Source: Candidatus Hydrogenedentota bacterium
GTDB taxonomy: Bacteria > Hydrogenedentota > Hydrogenedentia > Hydrogenedentales > JAEUWI01
Assembly: GCA_019637335.1 (NCBI GenBank)
Contig: JAHBVV010000011.1
Location: 124,001 to 188,000, forward strand
Direction: 5' to 3'
Length of the DNA stretch: 64,000 bases
Part shown: positions 18,036-29,973 of the stretch, one piece after another
Numbering within the stretch: position 1 is the stretch's first letter
How the letters are laid out: every line of letters begins with the position of its first letter
Program-made: the position numbers and the translations under genes
Notes under the pieces: generated by a model
What the model was told of the DNA's origin: nothing
Seen by the model: the letters and a program-made list of their open reading frames with translations, nothing else
Database searches by the model: none

Positions 18036-18205
18036 AGGAGGTTGGGCATCCTGCCCGGCGCAACATGCGCTCCCGATGCGGCAGTACCTGCAATTTCGTC
18101 GCATAACCGAGCGTTTCCACGTGGACACGCCAGGGGGGCCTGACCTGAAAGCCAGCCACCTACGAAATCGACGCGCGCGCCGCCGCAGACAGAAATGTCC
18201 GCGAT

Positions 18206-19278
18206 CCTACGACACCGGGAACCGACTGAGCCGCGTGGACATTCCGAACGGCATGCACACGGCGTATGCGTATGATACGTCCGGGCGGCTGGACGCCATC
18301 CACCACAAGGACGGGACTACGGTGGTCCAGGGCTTTGACTACACCTTCGACAATGGCGGCAACATCACCCGCATCGACCACGAGGATGGCAGCTATTGGG
18401 CCTACGATTACGATGGGCGGGACCGGCTCATCGAGGCCGAGCGCTACGACGACACGCCAACGCTCCTCCACCGCTACACCTACACCTATGACGATGCCGA
18501 CAACATGCTCACGAAAGCCGTCTACGATCCGAGTGGCCCGAGCACCGTCACCACCACCTTCACCTACAACGACGCCAACGAACAAACCAGCATGAGCGAC
18601 GGGACCACCACGACGAACATGACCTATGACGAATGGGGCCGTCTGGTGGAGAAGGACGACGGAACCTACACCGCCACCTACGTTTGGGGACTTGGTTCCG
18701 AACTACTGCAGTTTGATTCGAATTTCCCCGGACAGGGAACCGTCAGCTATCAGTATGGAGGTGATGGCAAGCGCCGTAGCGTGGACGACGGAACGAGTTT
18801 TGTGTGGTACAACTGGGCCAGAAACATTCCCATTAATGAAGAGGACCAAGGAGCAGGTGTCGGCGATGGGCCGTTAAGCAAGACTCTCATTGCCTTTCGA
18901 GCAGAAGTGGGAGGGAGCGATCCATCCTCGGGCACATATACCTATTTCGCGACGGACCACCTAGGTTCGATCCGTTCGACCTTTAACCAAGCGAAGAACA
19001 ATACGGGGAATGCCGAACTCGCTCCGTTTGGCACGCTTTATCAGGCTGCATTGCCAGGGGCAACGAGAGCACGATATAGCGCCCACACGCTTGATAACAA
19101 AACGGGACTGTACTATACCGAATATCGCTACTATGCGCCGGATAATGCACGATGGCTGAACCGGGATACCTTCGGCGCGATTGATGGACCGAACCTCTAT
19201 GCCTACGTGGGCAACAATCCGATATCGTACTGGGACCCCAATGGAGCAAGCCAGGTTCCAACGGAAGCTGGTGGATAA
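18206..19278 (+). pseudogene. RHS/YD-repeat core fragment
   Basis: About 350 codons encode YD repeats (YAYDTSGRLDAI, YAYDYDGRDRLIEAE, YTYDDADNML, YDEWGRLVEKD) and then the RHS core signature (YRYYAPDNARWLNRDTFGAI, LYAYVGNNPISYWDPNG). Full RHS proteins carry an N-terminal export domain and dozens more repeats, and the core is followed by a variable toxin-like tip. Here the repeats begin abruptly at SYDTGNRL, right after repeat-laden non-coding sequence, and the frame ends ~10 residues after the core. No ribosome site precedes it. I read it as the 3' remnant of an RHS gene, though a short in-frame start at 18076 exists. Confidence 0.7.
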
Positions 19279-20092: not shown

Positions 20093-21271
20093 TTAATCCC
20101 CGCAGCGCGCGCGATACCCCGGTTCCCGGGCGCGCTCGACGGCTTCGGCGATGCGCGCGGCGACCTCGTGGATCTCCCCGGCGGTGGTCGGGCGTCCCAG
20201 GCTGAAGCGGATGCTGCATTCGATGGCCTCGCGGTCGCGGCCCATCGCGGCGAGAACGTAGCTGGACAGCCGCGTCGCGCTGCTGCACGCGGCCCCCGCC
20301 GACACCGCGACTTCGGGCGCCCCGGCCATGATCGCTTCCGCAGCCGCTCCGGCGAAGGTCAGGTTGGCGAAGCCGGCGAGGCGCGCGCCCGGCGCGCCAT
20401 TCCGGGTTACCCCGGCCAGGCGCCGCATCAACGCGCTTTCAAGCAGGTCGCGTAGTTCCGCGATCCGCGCCTGCTCCGTTTCCGGGTCGCGCCCCGCGAT
20501 CTCCGCCGCGAGGCCCAGCCCCACGATGCCCGGGACGTTCAGCGTGCCCGACCGGAGGCCCCCCTCGTGGCCGCCGCCGTGGATCAGCAGGGCACAGCGC
20601 ACGCGCGGGCCCTTCCGGCGAACATAGAGCGCACCCACGCCCTTCGGCCCATAAATCTTGTGCGCGCTCAGGCTCAGGAGGTCAATGTGATCGCGGTTGA
20701 CGTCTATCCGGAGCTTCCCGAAACTCTGCGTGGCGTCGGTGTGGAACAGGACGCCGCGTGCGCGGCACAACGCCCCGATCTCGCGAATCGGCTGGAGTAC
20801 ACCCGTCTCGTTGTTGGCGTGCATCACCGAGACCAGCCGGGTCTCCGGCGTGATCGCATCGGCAAGCCGTTCGAGGTCGATAAGCCCGTCGTCATCAACT
20901 GGCAGGCGCTTGACGTGGACCCCTTGCGACGCCAGATGCGCGCAGCAGTCGATCACGGCCTTGTGTTCCGTGGCGGCGGTGACGATGTGGTTGCCGCGTC
21001 CCGCGTAATACGGCGCAAACGTCACCCCCTGAAGCGCCAGGTTGTCGGATTCCGTCGCGCCGCTCGTCCAGACGATCTCGCGCGGGTCGGCCCCCAGCAC
21101 CGCCGCCACCTGTTCGCGCGCGTGTTCGACCGCGTCCCGCGCCGCCTTTCCCGCCGCGTGGCCCGTGCTTGCGGCATTGCCGAAGCGCTCGTTGAAATAC
21201 GGCAGCATCGCGTCCAGCACCCGCGGGTCAACCGGCGTCGTGGCCGCGTAATCCAGGTAGATCAGGCTCAT
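20093..21271 (-). CDS. Cysteine desulfurase (NifS/IscS-type, PLP)
   Basis: The 392-aa protein takes sulfur from L-cysteine as an enzyme persulfide for Fe-S or thio-cofactor assembly. It has the YLDYAATTPVDPRVLDAM start, TSGATESDNLAL, the TEHKAVID cofactor histidine, the PLP lysine K205 in LSAHKIYGPKG, and a C-terminal loop GAACSSATR with C329 as candidate persulfide residue. That short loop puts it in the NifS/IscS group rather than SufS. Its ATG overlaps the stop of the cyclase gene by 4 bp (ATGA), so it is the last gene of the nine-gene operon. This implies sulfur supply to the Fe-S, radical SAM or lipoyl proteins encoded upstream; no IscU or SufE-like partner is nearby. Confidence 0.9.
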   Translation of the reverse strand: MSLIYLDYAATTPVDPRVLDAMLPYFNERFGNAASTGHAAGKAARDAVEHAREQVAAVLGADPREIVWTSGATESDNLALQGVTFAPYYAGRGNHIVTAATEHKAVIDCCAHLASQGVHVKRLPVDDDGLIDLERLADAITPETRLVSVMHANNETGVLQPIREIGALCRARGVLFHTDATQSFGKLRIDVNRDHIDLLSLSAHKIYGPKGVGALYVRRKGPRVRCALLIHGGGHEGGLRSGTLNVPGIVGLGLAAEIAGRDPETEQARIAELRDLLESALMRRLAGVTRNGAPGARLAGFANLTFAGAAAEAIMAGAPEVAVSAGAACSSATRLSSYVLAAMGRDREAIECSIRFSLGRPTTAGEIHEVAARIAEAVERAREPGYRARCGD

Positions 21272-23142
21272 GGCGCGGGCGCATCCTCGGCCAGGCAGGC
21301 CGCGGCGCCCGCAAGCGCGGATACGGTGAAGACAAGCGGATACATCGCCTCATGATACCAGAGCTGGGCGAAATAGAGCCCGATCGGCGTCGCAGGGAAC
21401 TGGACGCCGCTCGCCGTAGCGACTTCAAGCCATGCGCAACCCTGGAGCATGGCCTCGCGTTGCCTTCCGACATCCCCGGCGTAGCACAGATTCCGCGCCA
21501 GCGCGTCCACAGCCAGCGCGGTCTCCTCGATACTCGGGACAACGCCCGGCGCCCCGCCCCAGCCGCCATCCGGGCCCTGCGCCACCAGCAGCCAGTTTAC
21601 GGCCCGCGCGCGCGCCGCTGTCCACGCGTCCCGTACGCCCGCGAAGGCCGCCACCCCGGGCAATTCCGGAACGCCCAGCGTGACCGCCGTGCCATACACC
21701 GGATTGGTCTGCCCCGGCGCCGCCTGATTCCCAAACCAGAGCGGCGTCCACGATCCATCCTCGGCCTGCTCCCGCAGGAGAAACGTGATCGCGCGCGCGG
21801 CGGCGGTGTCCACCTCCACACCCAGCGCCGGCGACACAAGATTCCGCCACGCGAGCCACGCGCGCAGACTGTGGGCCGTCAGATCGGGACAGCTCTTGTC
21901 GAAGGGCAATTTGCCCCAACCCCGGCAGAAGGTCGGAATCCCGCCGTCCTTGTTCTGGAGGTCCATAAGCCAGCGGATGCCCGCTTCGGCGCATTCCAGG
22001 ATCGTGGCGTCCACGAGCCGTCCCTCCGCCGCCGCCAGGCCGTACACCGCAAGCAAGGCCCCCGGCGTATCGTCCGCGTCCGGAACCCCGCCCGAAAGAT
22101 CGGTCCAGGCCCAGCCGCCCGGCGCCGCCAGCGTGTAAGGGTGGGGGACCCGCCCCTGCCGCGCCAGGATCCATTCCAGGAGCCGGCCCCGCTCCGCCCC
22201 CGGAAGGTGTTCGCCTGGCGATCCGCCTCGCGCCAGCGCCTTTACCGCCAGCGTCGTGACCCACGTCCGCAGGTTCGTGTCAATCGGCCAGCTGCCGTCC
22301 GGGCGCACCGTATCGGCCAGAAAGTCCAGACAACGCGCCGTCACGGGATGGCTGGCCTCCCCGGCGCCGATGAGGCTCATCGCCACAAAACTGGTCAGGG
22401 GCGCGGCCTCCAGAAAGCCGCCCGACGCCGGTTGAATGGCCTCGAGGGTGCGCAGGGTGGGCTTGCGGGCCAGCGCGCGAAGGCAACGGAGGACCGGATT
22501 GCGGCTCGGGCGCTGGCGGTGCTGCGCCTGGCCCACCGCGATGAGCGCCGGCAGCGCGTAGCTCACCACGGGCAGCCCCAGGCGGTTGAACCAGCGGCGG
22601 GGGAAGGCCCCCAGCTCGAAGGGCAGCGCCGGGATCCCGCGCCAGGCCGCCCGCCCCGCGCCGAAGCGGCCCGACAGGGCGCACATCGTCAGAATCGGTA
22701 CCGAAAAGGTCCGGTCAAGCCCGTAGCGCGCGCAGATCGTGCGGGCGATCGCGTCCGCGGTCAGCTCGCCCGTTTCGCGCACAAGCCACGTCTCCGCGCG
22801 ATGCGCGGCGGGGGAGGGGACGCCGTCTTCGTGTTGGGCCGCGCCCAGCGCCGCCCAGCACAGCGTCGTCGTGCTGATGTTCGTCGGGCTGTCCACCGTG
22901 TCGCCCCACCCGCCATCCGCATTCTGGCGCCTTTCCAGCCACGACCGCGCGCCTCCGATGAGCGCGCCGATATCACCGCCGCCCGCCGGTACCCCCGCGC
23001 GCCGCGCCAGGGTCAAGGCGCAGAGCGCCGTCGCCGTGGATAGCGCGCTCGACGAAAGTTCGCCGTCCCAGCACCCAGCCTCGTTTCGCGCGTCCAGGAG
23101 CCGCGCGCGCGCGGTTTCAAGCGTCTTCAAGAGCGCATCCAT
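21268..23142 (-). CDS. shc: Squalene-hopene-type cyclase (class II triterpene cyclase)
   Basis: The 624-aa protein is close to the usual length of squalene-hopene cyclases. The protonating motif is D355-A-D357-D358-T (family DxDDT). QW-type repeats are spread over both domains: QNADGGWGDT, QNKDGGI, EQAEDGSW and AQGPDGGWGG. The end YHEAMYPLVFTVSAL parallels the YRHxFP-type terminus of the family. Known members cyclise squalene to hopene at the inner membrane. It lies 13 bp after the terpene-cyclase-repeat gene and overlaps the cysteine desulfurase start. Sequence between motifs is diverged, so another linear isoprenoid could be the substrate. No squalene synthase genes (hpnC/D/E) are in the window. 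Confidence 0.82.
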   Translation of the reverse strand: MDALLKTLETARARLLDARNEAGCWDGELSSSALSTATALCALTLARRAGVPAGGGDIGALIGGARSWLERRQNADGGWGDTVDSPTNISTTTLCWAALGAAQHEDGVPSPAAHRAETWLVRETGELTADAIARTICARYGLDRTFSVPILTMCALSGRFGAGRAAWRGIPALPFELGAFPRRWFNRLGLPVVSYALPALIAVGQAQHRQRPSRNPVLRCLRALARKPTLRTLEAIQPASGGFLEAAPLTSFVAMSLIGAGEASHPVTARCLDFLADTVRPDGSWPIDTNLRTWVTTLAVKALARGGSPGEHLPGAERGRLLEWILARQGRVPHPYTLAAPGGWAWTDLSGGVPDADDTPGALLAVYGLAAAEGRLVDATILECAEAGIRWLMDLQNKDGGIPTFCRGWGKLPFDKSCPDLTAHSLRAWLAWRNLVSPALGVEVDTAAARAITFLLREQAEDGSWTPLWFGNQAAPGQTNPVYGTAVTLGVPELPGVAAFAGVRDAWTAARARAVNWLLVAQGPDGGWGGAPGVVPSIEETALAVDALARNLCYAGDVGRQREAMLQGCAWLEVATASGVQFPATPIGLYFAQLWYHEAMYPLVFTVSALAGAAACLAEDAPAP

Positions 23143-23155
23143 AATCCGTCCAATG

Positions 23156-24019
23156 TCAAAGGCTCAAGTGCCCCAGCGCCAGCAGCGCGTAATATGTATA
23201 CTCGCAATCCTCCGCGTCGTCCGCCCAGCTCCCGCAGAACGCCTTGCCCGTCCAGAGGCTGTCCAGGAAGTCGAGGCACGGCTCCTTCACGTGTTCAAAG
23301 GACATGTGCATGCCCGATAGCGCGTGCAGCGCCGTGGCGGTGGAGAGCAGGTCCGGAAAGTCGATCAGGCCCGTCGCGGTGAAGCCGCCGTCCGCGTGGC
23401 AGCGGGCAAGCAACCACGCCCCCGCTTCCGGCGGCGGCGGCTCCCCAAGATGCCGGAGCAGCGTTAGCGCCGCCGCCGTGGCGGGCGTCGTGCCCACGGG
23501 CATCGCCGGCTCGTTTGCGTAGGCGCCATCCTCCGTGCGCAGGCCGGCCAGGCACCCGATCATGCGCGCCGGATCCGGCATCGGGAGTCCCAGGTCTTGA
23601 TACAGCCCCATCGCCAGAAAGCTGTGGTAGACCGTGCCCCGGCCCGCCCCGGAATGAGCCGCGTAGCCGCCGTCCGGCGTCCGACAGGCCTCGATTTGCG
23701 CCGCAAGCGCCCGTTTCGCCCCGGCGTCCAGGCCCTGGCCCGGCATCGTGGCCCAGCAGCGCGCCAGACACGCCGCGTGCACAAAATCGAGGGACTCCGG
23801 ATCACCGAGGTTGTTGAGGAACGCGCGCGTCTCCTCCAGCGGGAGTTCGGCGCGCAACGCCAGGAGGCCCTCCAGCCCGAACACAGTGTAATAGAGATCG
23901 GGATTGCCGGCGCGATCCGCCACGCCCCCCGCGGCAAGAAACTGCCCGCGCAAGAACTCAGCGACCGGCCGCGACGCTTCCTGGAGCAGATTCGGGGCCA
24001 GCCGCGCGACTTGTAGCAT
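23156..24019 (-). CDS. Prenyltransferase/squalene-oxidase-repeat protein (half-cyclase)
   Basis: The 287-aa protein consists of alpha/alpha-barrel repeats as in protein prenyltransferase beta subunits and one domain of triterpene cyclases: CRTPDGGYAAHSGAGRGTVY, LRTEDGAYANEPAMPVGTT, CHADGGFTATGLIDFPDLLS. There is no DxDD motif, so it cannot be a class II cyclase alone. A full set of zinc ligands for a prenyltransferase is not obvious. I prefer ATG 24019, six bases after GAGG, to the GTG at 24037. Either start overlaps the synthase gene by 60-80 bp, implying coupling. It may be an accessory domain for the cyclase or bind the polyprenyl product; function unknown. Confidence 0.75.
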   Translation of the reverse strand: MLQVARLAPNLLQEASRPVAEFLRGQFLAAGGVADRAGNPDLYYTVFGLEGLLALRAELPLEETRAFLNNLGDPESLDFVHAACLARCWATMPGQGLDAGAKRALAAQIEACRTPDGGYAAHSGAGRGTVYHSFLAMGLYQDLGLPMPDPARMIGCLAGLRTEDGAYANEPAMPVGTTPATAAALTLLRHLGEPPPPEAGAWLLARCHADGGFTATGLIDFPDLLSTATALHALSGMHMSFEHVKEPCLDFLDSLWTGKAFCGSWADDAEDCEYTYYALLALGHLSL

Positions 24020-25778
24020 TTCGAGCCTCAAACTCACTGCAATAGCCCTCGATAAGCTGCTCGCTGAACATTTTTCCGACCACCCGGCGCAGGAGCCCCT
24101 TCAGGGTCGCGTTGGGGATGAACCGGAGCGACCGGATCGCCTCCTCCTTGTACGCCGCGAGCAGGTCGTCGGCCTTCTCCAGCACGCCGCGATCCTCAAG
24201 AATTTCACGGACCTCCTCGCGCACGTCGGCATAAGGGATTTCACCCCGCCAGAGACGCGCAATCAGATCCTGCTGCGCACCTTCCACCGCCCGCTTGTGC
24301 GCGATCGCCAGAATGAGCGACGGCCGAATCGCGTCCAAATCGTGGGAATCGCCCTCGTCGGAATGGTCCTCGATATCGTCGTTGATCTGGTAGGCGATGC
24401 CCAGGGCCTCGCTGTATTTCTGGAGCACCTCGTGCGTTTCCTCATCCGCCCCGCCCAGGCACGCGCCCAGCCGCAGCGCCACCTCAAAGGCCGGCGCCGT
24501 CTTCATCCGGAAGATATCCAGGATCTCCAGCGACGTAAGAACCCGCCGGTTTTCGGCCCAGCAAAGCTCCGTGCCCTGGCCGCGGCTCAGCGTCTCGTGC
24601 GAGCAGGCCGCCAGCCGCAACATTTCCACCTTGCGAACCGGATCCACGTCCGCCTCGGCGAGCAGCCGGTAGCCCAGGCCGAGCAGGAAGTCACCCACGT
24701 TCAGCGCGATCGGCACGCCCCGCTCCGTGTGCAGGGTCGCCATGCCGTAGCGCTGGGTGTCCGCGTCCTCGATGTCGTCGTGGATGAGCGAGGCCTTGTG
24801 GAAACACTCAATCGCCACGGCGGTCTGGCGCAATGCGCGCGAGGGCGGCGGGGGCGTTTCATGGCGCGACGCCTCCAGCGCGAGCGCGGTGCACGCCGCG
24901 AGATACGGGCGCCAGCGCTTGCCATCGCGCGCGAGCCAGTCCCGGGCAATCTCGTCCGTCTCCGTGGCGCACGGCCCGAGCAGTTCGTCCAGCGCGTCGC
25001 GGGTAAACCACGCGCGCACGTCGGCCTTCAGCGCTTCCAGGTCGAGCCGGTACGTCTTGTCGTCCGCGGTGAGGTGAATTACATCCCAGACCCAGTCCAG
25101 GTCGACCGTGGTGTTGATGCAGTCGTCCTGCAAAAGGGGAATGGCGATACTCGGTATGGCCGCGGCTTCCATATGCGGGAAGCACTTCTCCAGCACGTTC
25201 AGACAACTCACCCCGACCACCGCCTCGATCTTTCCAGTCTCGATCATCTTGCGGACTATCGCCGACCCTTCCGCCACGAGCACCGCGTAGCCCAGGCGCT
25301 CCGCCTCGACGCTCAAATCCTGGATCGAGCAGAGACCGCATTCCTTGCACAGCAGGCCGAATTCATCGAAGGGCGCGGGACATTTGTCTTCCACGCGGAG
25401 GCACTTCGGCAGCAGGAGCAGGCGCCGATCGAAGGGAACCTGGGCCAGCGCATCCGCCCACGCGGCGTTGCTCAACAGCACGGCCGCGTAATCTTTGTAA
25501 ACCGGGTCCAGGCCGACGCGCTTCAGGACAGTGGCCGTGTGTTCCCGGAGTTCGTCCATCGTCAGCGGCGGCGTCAGTCCCTCCAGGCGCGTGTAAATTC
25601 GAATTGCCTCCTTCAGCCGGGCGCGAACCGTCTTTTCATCCGGAATGTCCGATTGGGCCGGGCGGTACGCCTGCCGGGGGACCCGGGGGGGCAGCACCAC
25701 CTGCGGAACCGGGCCAACGGCGGCGGGGGAGAGGGGGGCCGTTGCGGTTGCATGGCCATTGGATCGTACTTCGCTCAT
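23958..25778 (-). CDS. DUF116 domain fused to trans-polyprenyl diphosphate synthase
   Basis: The 606-aa product has two parts. Residues ~60-230 are DUF116-like, with cysteines in PKCLRVEDKCPAPF and GLLCKECGLCSIQDL that could bind metal or an Fe-S cluster. Residues ~270-560 are an IspA/IspB-type synthase with both aspartate-rich motifs: D334-D-I-E-D338 after LIH, and D467-D-I-E-D471 after QIN, plus GKRWRPYL for diphosphate binding. Such enzymes condense isopentenyl diphosphate onto an allylic primer; chain length cannot be told. A Pro/Ala-rich N-terminal ~45 residues looks disordered. It is the first lipid gene of the operon, just after the radical SAM gene (64-bp gap). The fusion ties a redox-type domain directly to prenyl chain synthesis. 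Confidence 0.85.
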   Translation of the reverse strand: MSEVRSNGHATATAPLSPAAVGPVPQVVLPPRVPRQAYRPAQSDIPDEKTVRARLKEAIRIYTRLEGLTPPLTMDELREHTATVLKRVGLDPVYKDYAAVLLSNAAWADALAQVPFDRRLLLLPKCLRVEDKCPAPFDEFGLLCKECGLCSIQDLSVEAERLGYAVLVAEGSAIVRKMIETGKIEAVVGVSCLNVLEKCFPHMEAAAIPSIAIPLLQDDCINTTVDLDWVWDVIHLTADDKTYRLDLEALKADVRAWFTRDALDELLGPCATETDEIARDWLARDGKRWRPYLAACTALALEASRHETPPPPSRALRQTAVAIECFHKASLIHDDIEDADTQRYGMATLHTERGVPIALNVGDFLLGLGYRLLAEADVDPVRKVEMLRLAACSHETLSRGQGTELCWAENRRVLTSLEILDIFRMKTAPAFEVALRLGACLGGADEETHEVLQKYSEALGIAYQINDDIEDHSDEGDSHDLDAIRPSLILAIAHKRAVEGAQQDLIARLWRGEIPYADVREEVREILEDRGVLEKADDLLAAYKEEAIRSLRFIPNATLKGLLRRVVGKMFSEQLIEGYCSEFEARNATSRAAGPESAPGSVAAGR

Positions 25779-25842
25779 GTCGCCACCACGTTCCTTTCGA
25801 CTCGTTCGCTGCGTGCGGGGCGCGGCGCCACAACATACCGTA

Positions 25843-27039
25843 TCACGTGTAGGCGCCGAACCCGAAAAACCAATACTTCTTGGCGAAACGATAGAGCCAA
25901 TGTTTCTCCGGGATCTCGTTGCCCGGGTTGTACTGGCTGTTACGCGACGCCATCGCCTCCAGTTCCGCCAGGGCCCGCTTGCGCGCGGTGGTATCGCGCG
26001 AGCCGTTCCGCGTCACGATGTCCTTCAGGAGATCGGGACGCTCCAGCACAATGCAGCCCCGCGTGGCCTGGGCCGCCGTCTTGCGGAAGTCCGCCAGCAA
26101 GGTAGACTCCGTCATGGTGCGGTAAATATCGCCGCCGTTGTCCCCGATCGACTCGTTCGCGAATTGGATGATCGGGCAGGGCTCGATATCGCCCCAGGGG
26201 CTGATGTGGTGGCTGATGCCCACGGCGGCGGGGCATAGCGCATTGCCCTGGTCGTCCCAGTACGCATCCACGAAACCGATGGGCTTGCGGTTGCGCATCT
26301 CCACGCCGAAGCGCCGCACCGCGAGCACCTGCTCGGGCGTGAGCGCCAGTTCCGGCTTCGGATCCGGGCCCACCGGGCGGTAGGTGTGAAACCAGGCGTA
26401 GTGCACGCCGCGCTTTACGAGTTCGTCGACCCATTCCTCGCGGACCAGTTCGTCAAAGTTGCTCTGGCACACGCTGGTGGCGACGCCCGTAATCAGCCGG
26501 TTGCGAATGCAGGCGTCGATGCCCGCCAGGGTATGGTTCAGCACATTCTTCCGCCCGCGCCGCTCGTCGCTGACGATTTCTCGGCCCTCGACGCTGATGA
26601 GGGGCGTGGCGTTGCCGGCGCGCCGGAGTTCGGCGGCCACCTTGTCCGTGATGAACTGCCCGTTGGTGAATATCTGGAAATAGCAGTCCGGATGCGCCTC
26701 CAGCAGCCGGATCAGGTCCGGGTGCATGAAGGGCTCGCCGCCGAGAATCCCGAAAAAGCTGTTGCCGTGCTTCTTTGCGTTGGTGACCAGGCGATCGAGG
26801 TCCTCAAACGATATCATGGACTCCGGCGCGGCCACGTCCACCCAGCAGCCCTGGCAGCGCAGGTTACAGCTGTTGATAATCGAAATATACAGAAACGGCG
26901 GGAATACCTTGCCCTTTTTCAGTTCGCGCTTGAAGCGCTGGACGGACAGCATGCCCTTGAACCCGAAGTTGTAGGAAAATTTCCACAGCAACCGGGCGTC
27001 GACCGTGCGAACCATGCGGTAGGCAATTGCGGGAACCAT
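25843..27039 (-). CDS. Radical SAM protein with SPASM-like C-terminus
   Basis: The 398-aa protein starts at ATG 27039, 2 bp after the ferredoxin stop; a longer upstream reading of the frame lies inside that gene and is not used. The radical SAM cluster motif is C58-N-L-R-C62-Q-G-C65, followed by GILGGEPFMHPDL (SAM-binding GGE) and IFTNGQFI. Additional cysteines late in the chain (ALCPAAVGISHHISPWGDIEPCP and RGCIVL) suggest an auxiliary cluster of SPASM type. Related proteins modify peptides, tRNA or lipids by hydrogen-atom abstraction. Next to the polyprenyl synthase and cyclase, a lipid target is the obvious guess. It lacks the N-terminal pattern of the adenosyl-hopanoid synthase HpnH, so I do not assign that role. 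Confidence 0.85.
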   Translation of the reverse strand: MVPAIAYRMVRTVDARLLWKFSYNFGFKGMLSVQRFKRELKKGKVFPPFLYISIINSCNLRCQGCWVDVAAPESMISFEDLDRLVTNAKKHGNSFFGILGGEPFMHPDLIRLLEAHPDCYFQIFTNGQFITDKVAAELRRAGNATPLISVEGREIVSDERRGRKNVLNHTLAGIDACIRNRLITGVATSVCQSNFDELVREEWVDELVKRGVHYAWFHTYRPVGPDPKPELALTPEQVLAVRRFGVEMRNRKPIGFVDAYWDDQGNALCPAAVGISHHISPWGDIEPCPIIQFANESIGDNGGDIYRTMTESTLLADFRKTAAQATRGCIVLERPDLLKDIVTRNGSRDTTARKRALAELEAMASRNSQYNPGNEIPEKHWLYRFAKKYWFFGFGAYT

Positions 27040-27041
27040 CG

Positions 27042-27920
27042 TTAAATACCCCAATCTTCCTGGGTTGGCGCAGGGCGCTCGGCGTCCCGGGCGCTCTTGG
27101 ATCGCTCCAGGCGCTTCTTCAGTTTTTCGCGCGCGCGCTCTGCCCGCTCTTCGATATCCCCGGCGGACGGAAGGCTCATGAGCACTTCTTCCGGGATGTC
27201 CAGATCTTTCTTCAGCTTCTTCAGGCACCGCTTCCGCTCCAGCAGCGCCTTCGACTCGTCGCGCTCCGTGGAAAACCGCTTTCGCGCGTCGGACTGGCGC
27301 GAACGAAGCGCCGAATAGATGTCCCCGCCAAGCAGGGCGGACACATCCACCTTCATTGCCTCCCGCTGCACATCCTCCGGACGCACCACATCGCCGTTGA
27401 TGGGGCCCTTCCGGTACTTGGGAAAGAGGATTGCCACCTCCGGGCACACCCGCGAGCAGGCCGGGCAGTCCGTCTTACAATTACTTTCATTCTGGACGCT
27501 GATCTTGTCGTGTTCATCCACCGCGTAGACGTCGAACAGGCAGAAACTGAGGCACTGCATGCAGTTCGTGCAGCGGTCGTAATCGATCACGGGAAACCAC
27601 GGCTTCCACGCCTCCAGCGCGCGCGCGCCGGACGCCTTACGCACGGTTCGGGCCAGATCCACGACCGCCTCGGGCGTCTGGCCGGCGATATCATGGTATT
27701 GAACGCCCTCGGACGCGGCCAGCGTGTCGGGCGCGGGGCCGAGCACCAGCATCGGGGAGCCAGCGGCGTCGTGCGCTTCGCCGTGCATCGGGCGGCTTAC
27801 CTCGAAACCGGCTTCCAACAGCGCGCACAGGGTCTCCGCGCGCATCTCGGGAGCCAGGCCCTCCCCGTGGAACACGACCCGCAGATTCAGCCCGTCGGTT
27901 TTGCTCGCCTGCGTCCTCAT
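27042..27920 (-). CDS. 2x[4Fe-4S] ferredoxin-domain protein
   Basis: The 292-aa protein has a Rossmann-like N-terminal ~105 residues and then cluster motifs C117-x2-C120-x2-C123-x3-C127 (RCTNCMQCLSFC) and C-x3-C-x2-C-x3-CP (CKTDCPACSRVCP), typical of 8Fe ferredoxins. A long charged coiled-coil-like tail follows (KALLERKRCLKKLKKDL, AERAREKLKKRLERS). ATG 27920 overlaps the preceding stop as ATGA. It is likely the electron conduit for the radical SAM protein or for the HdrA-N-like/lipoyl partners upstream; the tail may mediate docking. Cytoplasmic: no signal peptide or membrane segment. Confidence 0.82.
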   Translation of the reverse strand: MRTQASKTDGLNLRVVFHGEGLAPEMRAETLCALLEAGFEVSRPMHGEAHDAAGSPMLVLGPAPDTLAASEGVQYHDIAGQTPEAVVDLARTVRKASGARALEAWKPWFPVIDYDRCTNCMQCLSFCLFDVYAVDEHDKISVQNESNCKTDCPACSRVCPEVAILFPKYRKGPINGDVVRPEDVQREAMKVDVSALLGGDIYSALRSRQSDARKRFSTERDESKALLERKRCLKKLKKDLDIPEEVLMSLPSAGDIEERAERAREKLKKRLERSKSARDAERPAPTQEDWGI

Positions 27921-28297
27921 GTCCGTTCTCCGCAATGCGCGCACGGCGCCAGCAATCCATCCAGCACGTCTTCCGCGGAGTCGACCCGCATGTTGTGCAC
28001 CTCCGCCCCCTCGGCGGGCAGGGGCGCGCCCGCACCGTGAAACAGCCACCGCACCGCGCGTTCGTAACAGGCCGCAATCCGTATGTGCGGCGTGTCGGCC
28101 AGCCGCTTCAACGACGGATCCTGCCGGGCAGCCAGATCGCAAAGATCGGGAACAGCCTCAAACGGAACGCCGGAATCGGTCAGGCCCGCCAGGACAGCCC
28201 GCTTGACCTCGCGCGGCACGACATTCGCATACGTGCAATTGCAGAAAAGGATGCGCGGCGGCGCGGCGCTGGTTTCGGGGGCGTGTTCGTTGCTCAT
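27917..28297 (-). CDS. Small cysteine protein resembling the HdrA N-terminal domain
   Basis: The 126-aa protein has C19-N-C21 after a beta-strand (RILFCNCTYAN), C53 (PDLCDLA), C77 (IRIAACYERAVRWLF) and a terminal C119-A-H-C122. The order CxC ... LC ... V/IAAC-x3-(R)-x4-LF follows the N-terminal domain of heterodisulfide-reductase subunit A, which starts VCxCG and has a CS and an A(A/S)CSPRTHEPLF segment. The correspondence was made by eye and needs a profile search. Its ATG overlaps the GTPase stop and its stop overlaps the ferredoxin start, both by 4 bp, so all three are made together. A free-standing HdrA-N module with a ferredoxin and a lipoyl carrier suggests thiol/disulfide electron transfer. 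Confidence 0.6.
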   Translation of the reverse strand: MSNEHAPETSAAPPRILFCNCTYANVVPREVKRAVLAGLTDSGVPFEAVPDLCDLAARQDPSLKRLADTPHIRIAACYERAVRWLFHGAGAPLPAEGAEVHNMRVDSAEDVLDGLLAPCAHCGERT

Positions 28298-29436
28298 GCG
28301 CCGCTGCTCCCGCTGGCGATGCCGGCCGCGTCCCGGTGCACCGGCGTTGGCATGCCAGGCCGGAAACTCTCCAGGTGTTCGATAGACAGGGTCGCCTTGC
28401 TTGATGCCGACAGAGAAATCAGGGTGTCTTCCACGATTGCCCGAAGGGCATCCGGATCCATCTCCGCCCGAAGATTGAGAATCAGCGACCCCGAGGAGAC
28501 TGTTTCGTCCAGCGCCTCACGGAGTTCCGGCGCGGCATCCCCCCGCACCGCGCTCACCACCGAAAGCCGCCCGGCGATGTCGCCCGCGTCGAGCGTCATC
28601 TTCAAATGCGCGACCTCGCCGTCCGCGGCCAGCACGCGTTCCTGTATTGCGCGTGCAAGCTCCAGCAGAAGGCCGTCCGCCGGCACGCTTCGCTCCGCGC
28701 GTACCTGAACCGTGGCGTTCAACCAGCCCAGGAGCGCCTCGCCCGCGCCATACGTATCGTAATCCAGCTCCATCGCGGGGCGGCTGCCGCACTCCTCCGA
28801 GAGCACCTGTTCGAACCACGGCTCGAGGCCCATACCATCACGCGCCGCGCAGCAATGCACGGTCGCGTGGGGAAAACGCCGCCGGAATTCATCGGCCAGC
28901 CGCTCGCGCAGTTCGTCCGCCACGCTGTCGCACTTGTTAATGACGATAATATCGGCTTCTTCCAGCTGCTTCGTGTAAATGTACACGACCTTCTCGGAAA
29001 ACGCCCGCCCGGGCTCCAGCCCGAAAATCCGCGCCGCCCGCGACGGGTCCACCAACACGCTCAGCGGCGCAATGGTGAAGCGCTCGCCGTAGATGCGGCG
29101 CAGGGGATACGAAACCGTGGCGACCAGGTCGGTGCAGCTCCCCACCGGCTCCGCCAGAAACACATCCGGCGCCGCCGCGCGCGCCAGCTTCTCCGAGGCC
29201 TCCATCAGCGAATCAAAACGGCAGCAGAAGCATCCGCCCGCAATCTCCTCCACCGTGAAGCCGCGCGAACGCAACAGCGCCGTGTCCACCAGGCCCGTGC
29301 TCTGATCGTTGCTGATCAGCCCAACGCGCGCGCCGCGATCGGTGAGATAGCGCGCGAACGCCGCTATCGCCGTCGTCTTGCCCGCGCCGAGAAAGCCGCC
29401 GATCATGATGTAGCGTGGTTTTTCGGATTCCGGCAT
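28294..29436 (-). CDS. CobW/G3E-family GTPase metallochaperone
   Basis: The 380-aa protein has Walker A GGFLGAGKTT (residues 13-22), the family metal motif C69-F-C71-C72 in GGCFCC, a switch-type LAEPVGSCTDL, and NKCD for guanine recognition, i.e. a complete G3E core. A C-terminal ~130-residue domain is less conserved. I choose ATG 29436, which has GAGGAG ten bases upstream; ATG 29445 is too close to that site and TTG 29454 precedes it. G3E GTPases insert or deliver Zn, Co or Ni to target enzymes. Here the client may be one of the cysteine-rich operon partners. It overlaps the small HdrA-N-like gene by 4 bp. Confidence 0.88.
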   Translation of the reverse strand: MPESEKPRYIMIGGFLGAGKTTAIAAFARYLTDRGARVGLISNDQSTGLVDTALLRSRGFTVEEIAGGCFCCRFDSLMEASEKLARAAAPDVFLAEPVGSCTDLVATVSYPLRRIYGERFTIAPLSVLVDPSRAARIFGLEPGRAFSEKVVYIYTKQLEEADIIVINKCDSVADELRERLADEFRRRFPHATVHCCAARDGMGLEPWFEQVLSEECGSRPAMELDYDTYGAGEALLGWLNATVQVRAERSVPADGLLLELARAIQERVLAADGEVAHLKMTLDAGDIAGRLSVVSAVRGDAAPELREALDETVSSGSLILNLRAEMDPDALRAIVEDTLISLSASSKATLSIEHLESFRPGMPTPVHRDAAGIASGSSGA

Positions 29437-29496
29437 GGATGCCATGCTCCTCAATAACAGCCCCGGCCGGCGCGCGGCCGGCCGGTGGGTAATGGG

Positions 29497-29973
29497 TCAC
29501 TTGAGCGCGTCGTCGCCCATCATTGTGTCGATTGACGTATCGAGAACGGCCATGTAGGCGGCGCGATCCAGGCAGTCGGGTCCCGGCGCGCCTTCCACGC
29601 GGTAAAGCCACCCGGCCTGGTGCGGATCGCGCCCCAGCAGGTCGATCCGGTCCAGCAGCGCGGGGTTGACCCCACGGAAGACGCCGTCCATCGGGGTGTA
29701 GATATCGCTCACCGCCTTGAAGCCCTCGAGCCAGCCAATGCCCTGGCCGCGCGCTATCACGTCGCCCGGTTGCGCCTCAAATTCCAGCTCCACCGGCTCG
29801 CCCAGCATGCGCATGGCGAACTGGGTATAGCCGATGTGCCAGATCTCGCCTTCCTCATGCCGTAGCCAGGCGTGCGCCGGCGTATAAAGGCAGTCGTCAT
29901 ACAAACGCGTCGAAAAACGCGCGCGTCGGTAGCGGATCGGCCCGGAGCCGGCTGTGGGTACTACGTGTGCCAT
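29497..29973 (-). CDS. GcvH-like lipoyl carrier protein
   Basis: The 158-aa protein has the fold signature of glycine-cleavage H protein: YTPAHAWLRHEEGEIWHIGYT at residues 30-50, GEPVELEFEAQPGDVI, and the lipoylation site WLEGFK86AVSDIYTPMDG, where the family normally has ES-x-K-A-x-SDIY. N- and C-termini are longer than in normal GcvH (~125-130 aa). No gcvT, gcvP or lipoamide dehydrogenase gene is near. Instead it heads the operon with CobW, HdrA-N-like, ferredoxin and radical SAM genes. That resembles the lipoate-binding proteins (LbpA) of sHdr systems more than glycine cleavage. I infer a dedicated dithiol carrier. Confidence 0.8.
   Translation of the reverse strand: MAHVVPTAGSGPIRYRRARFSTRLYDDCLYTPAHAWLRHEEGEIWHIGYTQFAMRMLGEPVELEFEAQPGDVIARGQGIGWLEGFKAVSDIYTPMDGVFRGVNPALLDRIDLLGRDPHQAGWLYRVEGAPGPDCLDRAAYMAVLDTSIDTMMGDDALK

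Follow-up and report, generated by a model that had tools for sequence, protein, structure and literature searches.

A conserved nine-gene operon that brings lipoyl and iron-sulfur redox proteins together with polyprenyl synthesis and a class II cyclase

Why should genes for a lipoyl carrier, a ferredoxin and a radical enzyme share an operon with genes for a polyprenyl diphosphate synthase and a class II cyclase? The question is raised by a locus at positions 20093-29973, on the minus strand, of a 64,000-nucleotide stretch of DNA from a Candidatus Hydrogenedentota bacterium (assembly GCA_019637335.1, contig JAHBVV010000011.1, positions 124,001 to 188,000), the whole of which we call the window. 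As a first-pass annotation had described, the list of open reading frames (ORFs) together with Pfam and NCBIfam matches places nine genes here, in the transcription order g1 to g9: a GcvH-like protein, a CobW-type GTPase, a protein resembling the N-terminal domain of HdrA (HdrA-N), a ferredoxin, a radical S-adenosylmethionine (SAM) enzyme, a fusion of DUF116 with a polyprenyl diphosphate synthase, an alpha/alpha-toroid protein, a class II cyclase and a cysteine desulfurase. Because a census of gene content at 41 loci, co-occurrence in Planctomycetota genomes without linkage and the replacement of one radical SAM enzyme by another all agree, we conclude that the nine genes are one co-conserved system, which bears out the co-conservation in related genomes that the annotation had expected.

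Gene order and gene content at 41 loci

The genes in the window are closely packed. By their ORF coordinates, 4-bp overlaps join g2 to g3, g3 to g4 and g8 to g9, and gaps of 42, 64 and 13 bp separate g1 from g2, g5 from g6 and g7 from g8, respectively; g4 and g5 overlap by 13 bp if the ATG at 27054 is used and lie 2 bp apart if the next ATG is used. The tight junctions first described thus stand for the 4-bp overlaps and for gaps of 64 bp at most, but not for g6/g7, where the two genes probably overlap by 80 bp, since the predicted g7 start (MSLRLEML) is conserved even where g7 begins past the end of g6.

Within the window's phylum the DUF116-synthase fusion is carried by 5 of 68 genomes, four of which, including the window's own, belong to one genus. 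Scanning contigs with the fusion yielded 41 loci that fall, by record title, into Hydrogenedentota, Acidobacteriota (titled Acidobacteria, Terriglobia or Vicinamibacteria), Planctomycetota and unassigned bins, and the remaining operon genes flank it nearly every time. For the census, profiles built from these same loci were used and a gene was counted only where the contig extends far enough; L011, L013 and L023 were dropped as repeats of L008, L004 and L009, L051 was passed over for its cut g6, and 41 of 42 loci were counted. So counted, g3 (33/33), g4 (33/33), g5 (36/36) and g7 (34/34) are never missing, and g8 (29/30), g2 (29/31) and g1 (26/28) rarely so. All nine genes are present at 19 of the 41 loci, and every one of the 299 operon genes lies on the strand of g6. 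Small rearrangements occur: g3 and g4 form a single ORF at four loci, and g9 stands upstream of g1 at four. The arrangement is not due to chance, because the same gene set recurs at many loci in three phyla.

The desulfurase g9 is the least conserved member, being present at 20 of the 28 loci with enough flank, and we therefore regard it as accessory. The first-pass annotation had it deliver sulfur to a possibly thiolated product; that part of its interpretation finds no support beyond inference, while the part that treated the genes as one co-conserved system has held.

Co-occurrence without linkage and exchange of the radical SAM enzyme

Among 392 Planctomycetota genomes we found g5 in 84, g6 in 95 and g4 in 93, a genome being scored as g5-positive above 390 bits (84 of the 122 genomes with any match). 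Both g5 and g6 are present in 83 of the 392, g5 alone in 1, g6 alone in 12 and neither in 296; for g4 and g6 the corresponding numbers are 90 with both, 3 with g4 alone, 5 with g6 alone and 294 with neither. Ferredoxin, radical SAM enzyme and DUF116-synthase are found together in 80 of the 98 genomes that have any of the three. The Fisher p values for the overlaps lie below 1e-65, uncorrected for relatedness. The association holds without linkage: distances were counted only where g5 and g6 are both on contig C1, and in 14 of these 22 genomes the two genes are separated by over 50 kb (73 kb to 3.2 Mb). The gene g6 is missing from three genomes that carry g4 or g5: in G187 and G437 part of it is found where a contig ends, and in G103 the sequence stops inside g8. 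In seven planctomycete genomes that we examined, g1 and g4 are kept together, mostly next to g8 and g6; the pair is located elsewhere in G116, G368, G376 and G404.

The system is rarer in Acidobacteriota (6 of 297 genomes by g5). In a tree of 35 g5 sequences, those of Planctomycetota stand among those of Acidobacteriota; the supported branches require at least two changes of label, which suggests transfer. The first-pass annotation had tied the redox genes to this pathway and not to others, and its claim survived the comparisons run, those of g4 and g5 in Planctomycetota and of g5 in Acidobacteriota.

The radical SAM enzyme itself (g5, 25843..27054, with a start at 27054 or 27039, minus strand; Radical_SAM E 1.2e-14) carries the CxxxCxxC motif in 67 of 67 copies. 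This and the other motif counts given here are of copies and not of independent lineages; low-scoring and short copies were left out, some copies are near-identical and loci L086 and L126 overlap. Three C-terminal cysteines (C274, C293 and C334) are invariant in 30 of 30 sequences. Against the HpnH equivalog TIGR03470 g5 scores 34 bits, where the cut-off is 225.05, its matches to SPASM-type radical SAM families lie far below their cut-offs, and it weakly matches the structure 7TOL (E 8.9e-7).

In 8 of the 12 Planctomycetota genomes that have g6 without g5, a second and unrelated radical SAM enzyme of about 500-515 aa occupies the place of g5 (L137:7048-8583 and L138:6670-8244, and further in L140, L198-L202, L213 and L214). 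It adjoins g4 in seven of the eight; in L138 it directly precedes g6, and g4 is on another contig. The nearest models, a B12-type family (TIGR04013) and MiaB-like families, are matched far under their cut-offs, and CxxxCxxC is present in all 8 aligned copies. The search for this enzyme covered 80 genomes, made up of all 12 with g6 only, both with g4 only, 30 of the 84 g5-positive genomes and 36 of some 290 negatives. It was found in 8/12 and 2/2 of the first two groups, and in 0/30 genomes with g5 and 0/36 without any of the three genes. Since g5 and the alternative enzyme are mutually exclusive in this sample, the data point to a single required radical step that either enzyme can perform. 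Weaker g5 homologues (109-213 bits), of which 11 loci were examined (L102-L112) and all lack g2, g3, g4, g6 and g8, were treated as another family; in L102 a GcvH-family gene lies 3.6 kb from the homologue.

The isoprenoid and redox proteins

The fusion protein g6 (23958..25778, minus strand, as are all nine genes) matches DUF116 (PF01976, E 1.4e-35) and polyprenyl_synt (PF00348, E 3.2e-39). Its synthase half has the DDxxD motif in 81 of 81 copies. By the chain-length rule for this position, an alanine five residues before the motif would point to a product longer than C20. A pattern search finds the conserved cysteine motif of the DUF116 half in 79 of 82 copies, and in the window's phylum DUF116 was found only as this synthase fusion (5 of 68 genomes). 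The structural model of the domain (predicted local distance difference test score 87.5) consists of a helical bundle and an alpha/beta domain. A B12-binding domain was considered and rejected, the leading Foldseek matches (MetH, CarH) having E values of at least 0.02 and a TM score of about 0.2, and VIA giving Z scores of 5.5 or less. The fusion as such is already in print: the relevant passages of PMC5898192 name a DUF116-polyprenyl synthetase fusion for Psta_0175 of Pirellula staleyi, with the same domains as g6, and propose DUF116 as a metal-binding, flavodoxin-fold electron-transfer domain. The same passages are silent on the other genes of the locus, cyclases and radical SAM enzyme among them, and on conservation and co-occurrence.

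The alpha/alpha-toroid protein g7 (23156..24037; PF00432 Prenyltrans repeats, E 4.6e-9) weakly resembles the beta subunit of RabGGTase, its best match (E 5e-9). The zinc ligands of protein prenyltransferase beta subunits are Asp, Cys and His. In g7 Leu and Tyr align to the Cys and His, in weakly aligned pieces of 4.7 and 7.2 bits; no Cys is invariant among 22 g7 sequences, and the DxDD pattern, matched by only 3 of 62 copies, is not conserved. In contrast, the cyclase g8 (21268..23142; SQHop_cyclase C-terminal E 1.7e-28, N-terminal E 2.7e-17) has DxDD in 64 of 64 copies, aligned with the motif of squalene-hopene cyclase (SHC) and invariant as D355-x-D357-D358 in 20 of 20 sequences, and a D-[LIV]-[TS]-A-H stretch in 61 of 64. 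Its nearest relative in the PDB is SHC (E 4.4e-35), but it scores 69.5 bits against the hopene cyclase equivalog TIGR01507, far from the cut-off of 431.1. By these measures g8, which the first-pass annotation had called SHC-type, is a class II cyclase of the SHC superfamily and not a canonical SHC. A canonical SHC (E < 1e-90), where present, is encoded by a gene separate from g8; it occurs in 4 of the first 31 carriers of the system and in 10 of the 11 planctomycete carriers with long contigs. A search for squalene/phytoene synthase (SQS_PSY, PF00494) found no copy in 11 of 31 carriers, among them G025, which is 99% complete.

Among the redox proteins, g1 (29497..29973; GCV_H E 2.8e-18) has a single lipoyl domain in which K86 is invariant in 17 of 17 sequences and the context of the lipoyl lysine is kept in 52 of 52 copies; no Cys is invariant among the 17. 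It scores 64.6 bits against the gcvH equivalog TIGR00527, short of the cut-off of 115.85, and a canonical GcvH is encoded elsewhere in the window's genome. Two or more GcvH-family matches turn up in 34 of 36 carriers, so g1 is a second paralogue beside canonical GcvH. The CobW/HypB/UreG-type P-loop GTPase g2 occupies 28294..29454 (cobW E 1.3e-24; its start is possibly a few codons further in). The 2[4Fe-4S] ferredoxin g4 (27042..27920; Fer4 and 4Fe-4S dicluster matches) bears a long C-terminal extension, with eight Cys invariant in 15 of 15 sequences and the ferredoxin motif in 70 of 70 copies. The IscS/NifS-family desulfurase g9 lies at 20093..21271 (Aminotran_5/IscS-NifS, E 2e-80); the pattern for its catalytic Cys, matched by 15 of 33 copies, is too crude to use.

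The 126-aa protein g3 (27917..28297) has no Pfam or NCBIfam match. Cys19, Cys21, Cys53 and Cys77 are invariant in 17 of 17 sequences and, with an NxR, form a CxC, Cys, Cys, NxR series at spacings almost equal to those in HdrA proteins from the same phylum. Of 7,766 ORFs (some from overlapping loci) 81 carry this signature, and each of them, judged by its position, is a copy of g3 or belongs to an HdrA locus. In a structure search with VIA the g3 model matched the HdrA N-terminal domain best, with Z 7.2, and HdrA entries make up five of the ten best rows; a designed protein ties with it, and Foldseek returned no match below 1e-3. Nor does a search against PDB sequences return HdrA, designed repeat proteins being best, and identification by profile-profile alignment was rejected (hhalign E 0.077, a control doing better at 0.003). 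The likeness to HdrA-N first suggested for g3 is therefore good because of the fixed-spacing signature, and not because of profile-profile alignment; the four cysteines may hold an iron-sulfur cluster.

Other genes recur around these loci. Beta-propeller proteins of the PQQ_2 family (Pfam searches on six of them) cluster beside 12 loci, including L032, L035, L036, L040 and L048, and in L040 flank a displaced g6 on both sides; their linkage is loose and they were not counted as operon members. An OsmC-like protein (Pfam on the L012 copy) recurs upstream of a displaced g9 in the Acidobacteriota loci L012, L014, L019 and L051. Six Acidobacteriota loci (L020, L025, L028, L042, L043 and L050) have a 109-aa ORF and several further genes in common on the downstream side of g9, probably as shared chromosomal context. 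In two related genomes an ORF that by eye is glycosyltransferase-like lies directly upstream of g4 (L213:3446-4792 and L214:7021-8316), so that a glycosylated product is possible. Immediately downstream of the operon in the window, at 18076-19278, is an ORF resembling RHS/YD-repeat proteins by eye. A promoter and terminator scan found sites no more numerous than in shuffled sequence.

A proposed pathway and its alternatives

The genomic evidence links the redox half of the operon to the isoprenoid half, and from it we infer a chemistry, an order of steps and a product. The explanation we favour, at somewhat better than even probability, is a dedicated pathway that would make a polyprenyl diphosphate of its own and turn it into a cyclic isoprenoid modified by a radical SAM enzyme, with the help of a lipoyl carrier and of an electron chain reserved to the pathway. 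The synthase half of g6 would make a regular polyprenyl diphosphate, and g8, aided by g7, would cyclise this diphosphate or a hydrocarbon derived from it through protonation by the DxDD motif. The radical SAM enzyme, be it g5 or its unrelated counterpart in other lineages, may act on an unactivated carbon of the isoprenoid or couple two units. Low-potential electrons would come from the DUF116 domain, the ferredoxin g4 and the HdrA-N-like g3, and the lipoyl arm of g1 may carry substrate, a sulfur atom or electrons; CobW g2 and the desulfurase g9 would aid the building of metal clusters. A bolder form, which we put forward tentatively and as clearly the less probable of the two, is a squalene-independent bacterial route to polycyclic isoprenoids, in which the DUF116-fused synthase, the lipoyl carrier and the interchangeable radical SAM enzymes would reductively couple, thiolate or cross-link polyprenyl chains and the DxDD cyclase would fold them; the product would be a membrane lipid or redox cofactor of a new class.

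Several observations weigh against the favoured pathway. Members are missing at some census loci (g9 at 8/28, g1 at 2/28, g2 at 2/31, g8 at 1/30), and four of the 12 g6-only genomes (G119, G126, G164 and G176) have neither g5 nor the alternative radical SAM enzyme. The lack of correction for relatedness in the co-occurrence statistic counts in the same direction, and neither Foldseek nor VIA finds a significant structural match for the DUF116 model. In seven planctomycete genomes (eight loci, two of them overlapping) the HdrA-N-like region, which precedes the ferredoxin and was equated with g3 by eye, is joined to that ferredoxin and retains at most one Cys, a degenerate iron-sulfur site (L122, L123, L126, L129, L130, L134, L141 and L086, the last overlapping L126); an iron-sulfur wire at this site cannot then be universal and the site is dispensable. 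Finally, SQS_PSY is present in 20 of the 31 carriers, and completeness values are given for only five of the 31. The gene is missing from G036 but present in its three relatives of the same genus, and missing from G092 but present in G083 and G085, whose g5 is nearly the same; some of the absences may thus be assembly gaps.

The presence of SQS_PSY speaks for a variant hopanoid or triterpene pathway, in which g8 would cyclise squalene and the radical SAM enzyme add a side chain as HpnH does. Hopanoid loci (shc, hpnH) likewise combine an enzyme of the squalene cyclase superfamily with a radical SAM enzyme, and the kinship of g8 to SHC, its conserved DxDD and D-[LIV]-[TS]-A-H stretches and the canonical SHC genes of most long-contig planctomycete carriers would all fit. 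We nevertheless consider this explanation unlikely: g8 and g5 fall below the curated cut-offs (69.5 against 431 bits for hopene cyclase, 34 against 225 for HpnH), 11 of the 31 carriers, one of them 99% complete, yielded no squalene synthase, the canonical SHC is another gene, and the operon has a polyprenyl synthase of its own. A precedent for the favoured pathway is the Bacillus sesquarterpene pathway, which runs from heptaprenyl diphosphate through tetraprenyl-beta-curcumene to an SHC-type cyclase. There an SHC-superfamily cyclase acts on a long regular polyprenyl product and not on squalene, as we propose for g8, but the Bacillus pathway is not known to include iron-sulfur, radical SAM, lipoyl or CobW genes, and no counterpart of its curcumene-synthase gene was recognised at this operon. 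A CobW protein, a lipoyl carrier, a radical SAM enzyme and cysteine-rich proteins are typical of cofactor synthesis, and the product could instead be a quinone-like or metal-binding redox cofactor that has an isoprenoid tail and a headgroup on which the CobW and lipoyl proteins act. We give this slightly less credence than the hopanoid variant; no headgroup-forming or UbiA-type prenyltransferase gene was recognised by eye, no family search being made, among the recurrent neighbours.

There are two further alternatives. The isoprenoid genes might be hitch-hikers on a sulfur-oxidising electron module of the sHdr kind, given a GcvH-like protein, an HdrA-N signature, a ferredoxin, a radical SAM enzyme and a desulfurase side by side; in the relevant passages of PMC6067878, sHdr clusters likewise hold lipoate-binding GcvH-like proteins, HdrA-related sequences and radical SAM proteins. 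The same passages describe two strictly conserved cysteines in LbpA, some archaeal ones excepted, and these are not conserved in g1. Moreover, none of 4,136 neighbourhood ORFs of at least 120 aa has two CCG (HdrB-type) motifs, by a pattern that had no positive control, the window's genome yielded no HdrA at E 1e-30, and it is a polyprenyl synthase and a cyclase that co-occur here, no less conserved than the redox genes. By eye no lipoate-protein ligase was recognised among the recurrent neighbours, no search for the LplA family being made. We regard the sHdr explanation as the least probable of those considered, and only slightly behind a system for protein or peptide prenylation or for a ribosomally synthesised and post-translationally modified peptide, in which g6 would supply the prenyl donor, g7 act as prenyltransferase and g5 as a SPASM-type maturase. 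The RabGGTase beta match of g7 and the SPASM-type matches of g5, far under cut-offs as they are, speak for this highly improbable alternative; g7, however, has no invariant Cys and, on a weak alignment, Leu and Tyr in place of two zinc ligands, no small ORF recurs within the operon among the clustered ORFs (of at least 70 aa), and g8 is a full DxDD cyclase. Archaeal tetraether enzymes (7TOL; GrsA/B) are also radical SAM proteins that act on isoprenoid lipids, as proposed for g5, but the families differ. To our knowledge they have no cyclase, lipoyl or DUF116 partners.

The enzyme families of the operon are all known. Taken together, the nine genes correspond to no kind of system described in the literature searched, which covered a minority of subscription papers and no bioRxiv preprints and in which only the DUF116-synthase fusion appears (PMC5898192). 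Within the same literature no described pathway joins iron-sulfur, lipoyl and radical-enzyme parts with the synthesis of a ring-shaped isoprenoid. If the favoured pathway is right, a conserved and so far undescribed lipid or cofactor pathway is present in somewhere between a fifth and a quarter of the Planctomycetota genomes in the sample (84 of 392 by g5, 95 by g6, some of them assembled into nearly one contig), and Pirellula staleyi, in print for the same fusion, becomes a candidate cultured host. DUF116, for which the literature searched holds no tested function, would be placed in a biochemical setting open to test, and terpenoid cyclisation would be tied to redox chemistry of the lipoyl and HdrA-like kinds. 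Polycyclic isoprenoids serve as molecular fossils, and a new bacterial source of them would thus be relevant to geobiology. If the bolder form is true, many Planctomycetota, along with a scattering of Acidobacteriota and Hydrogenedentota, would make the squalene-independent product.

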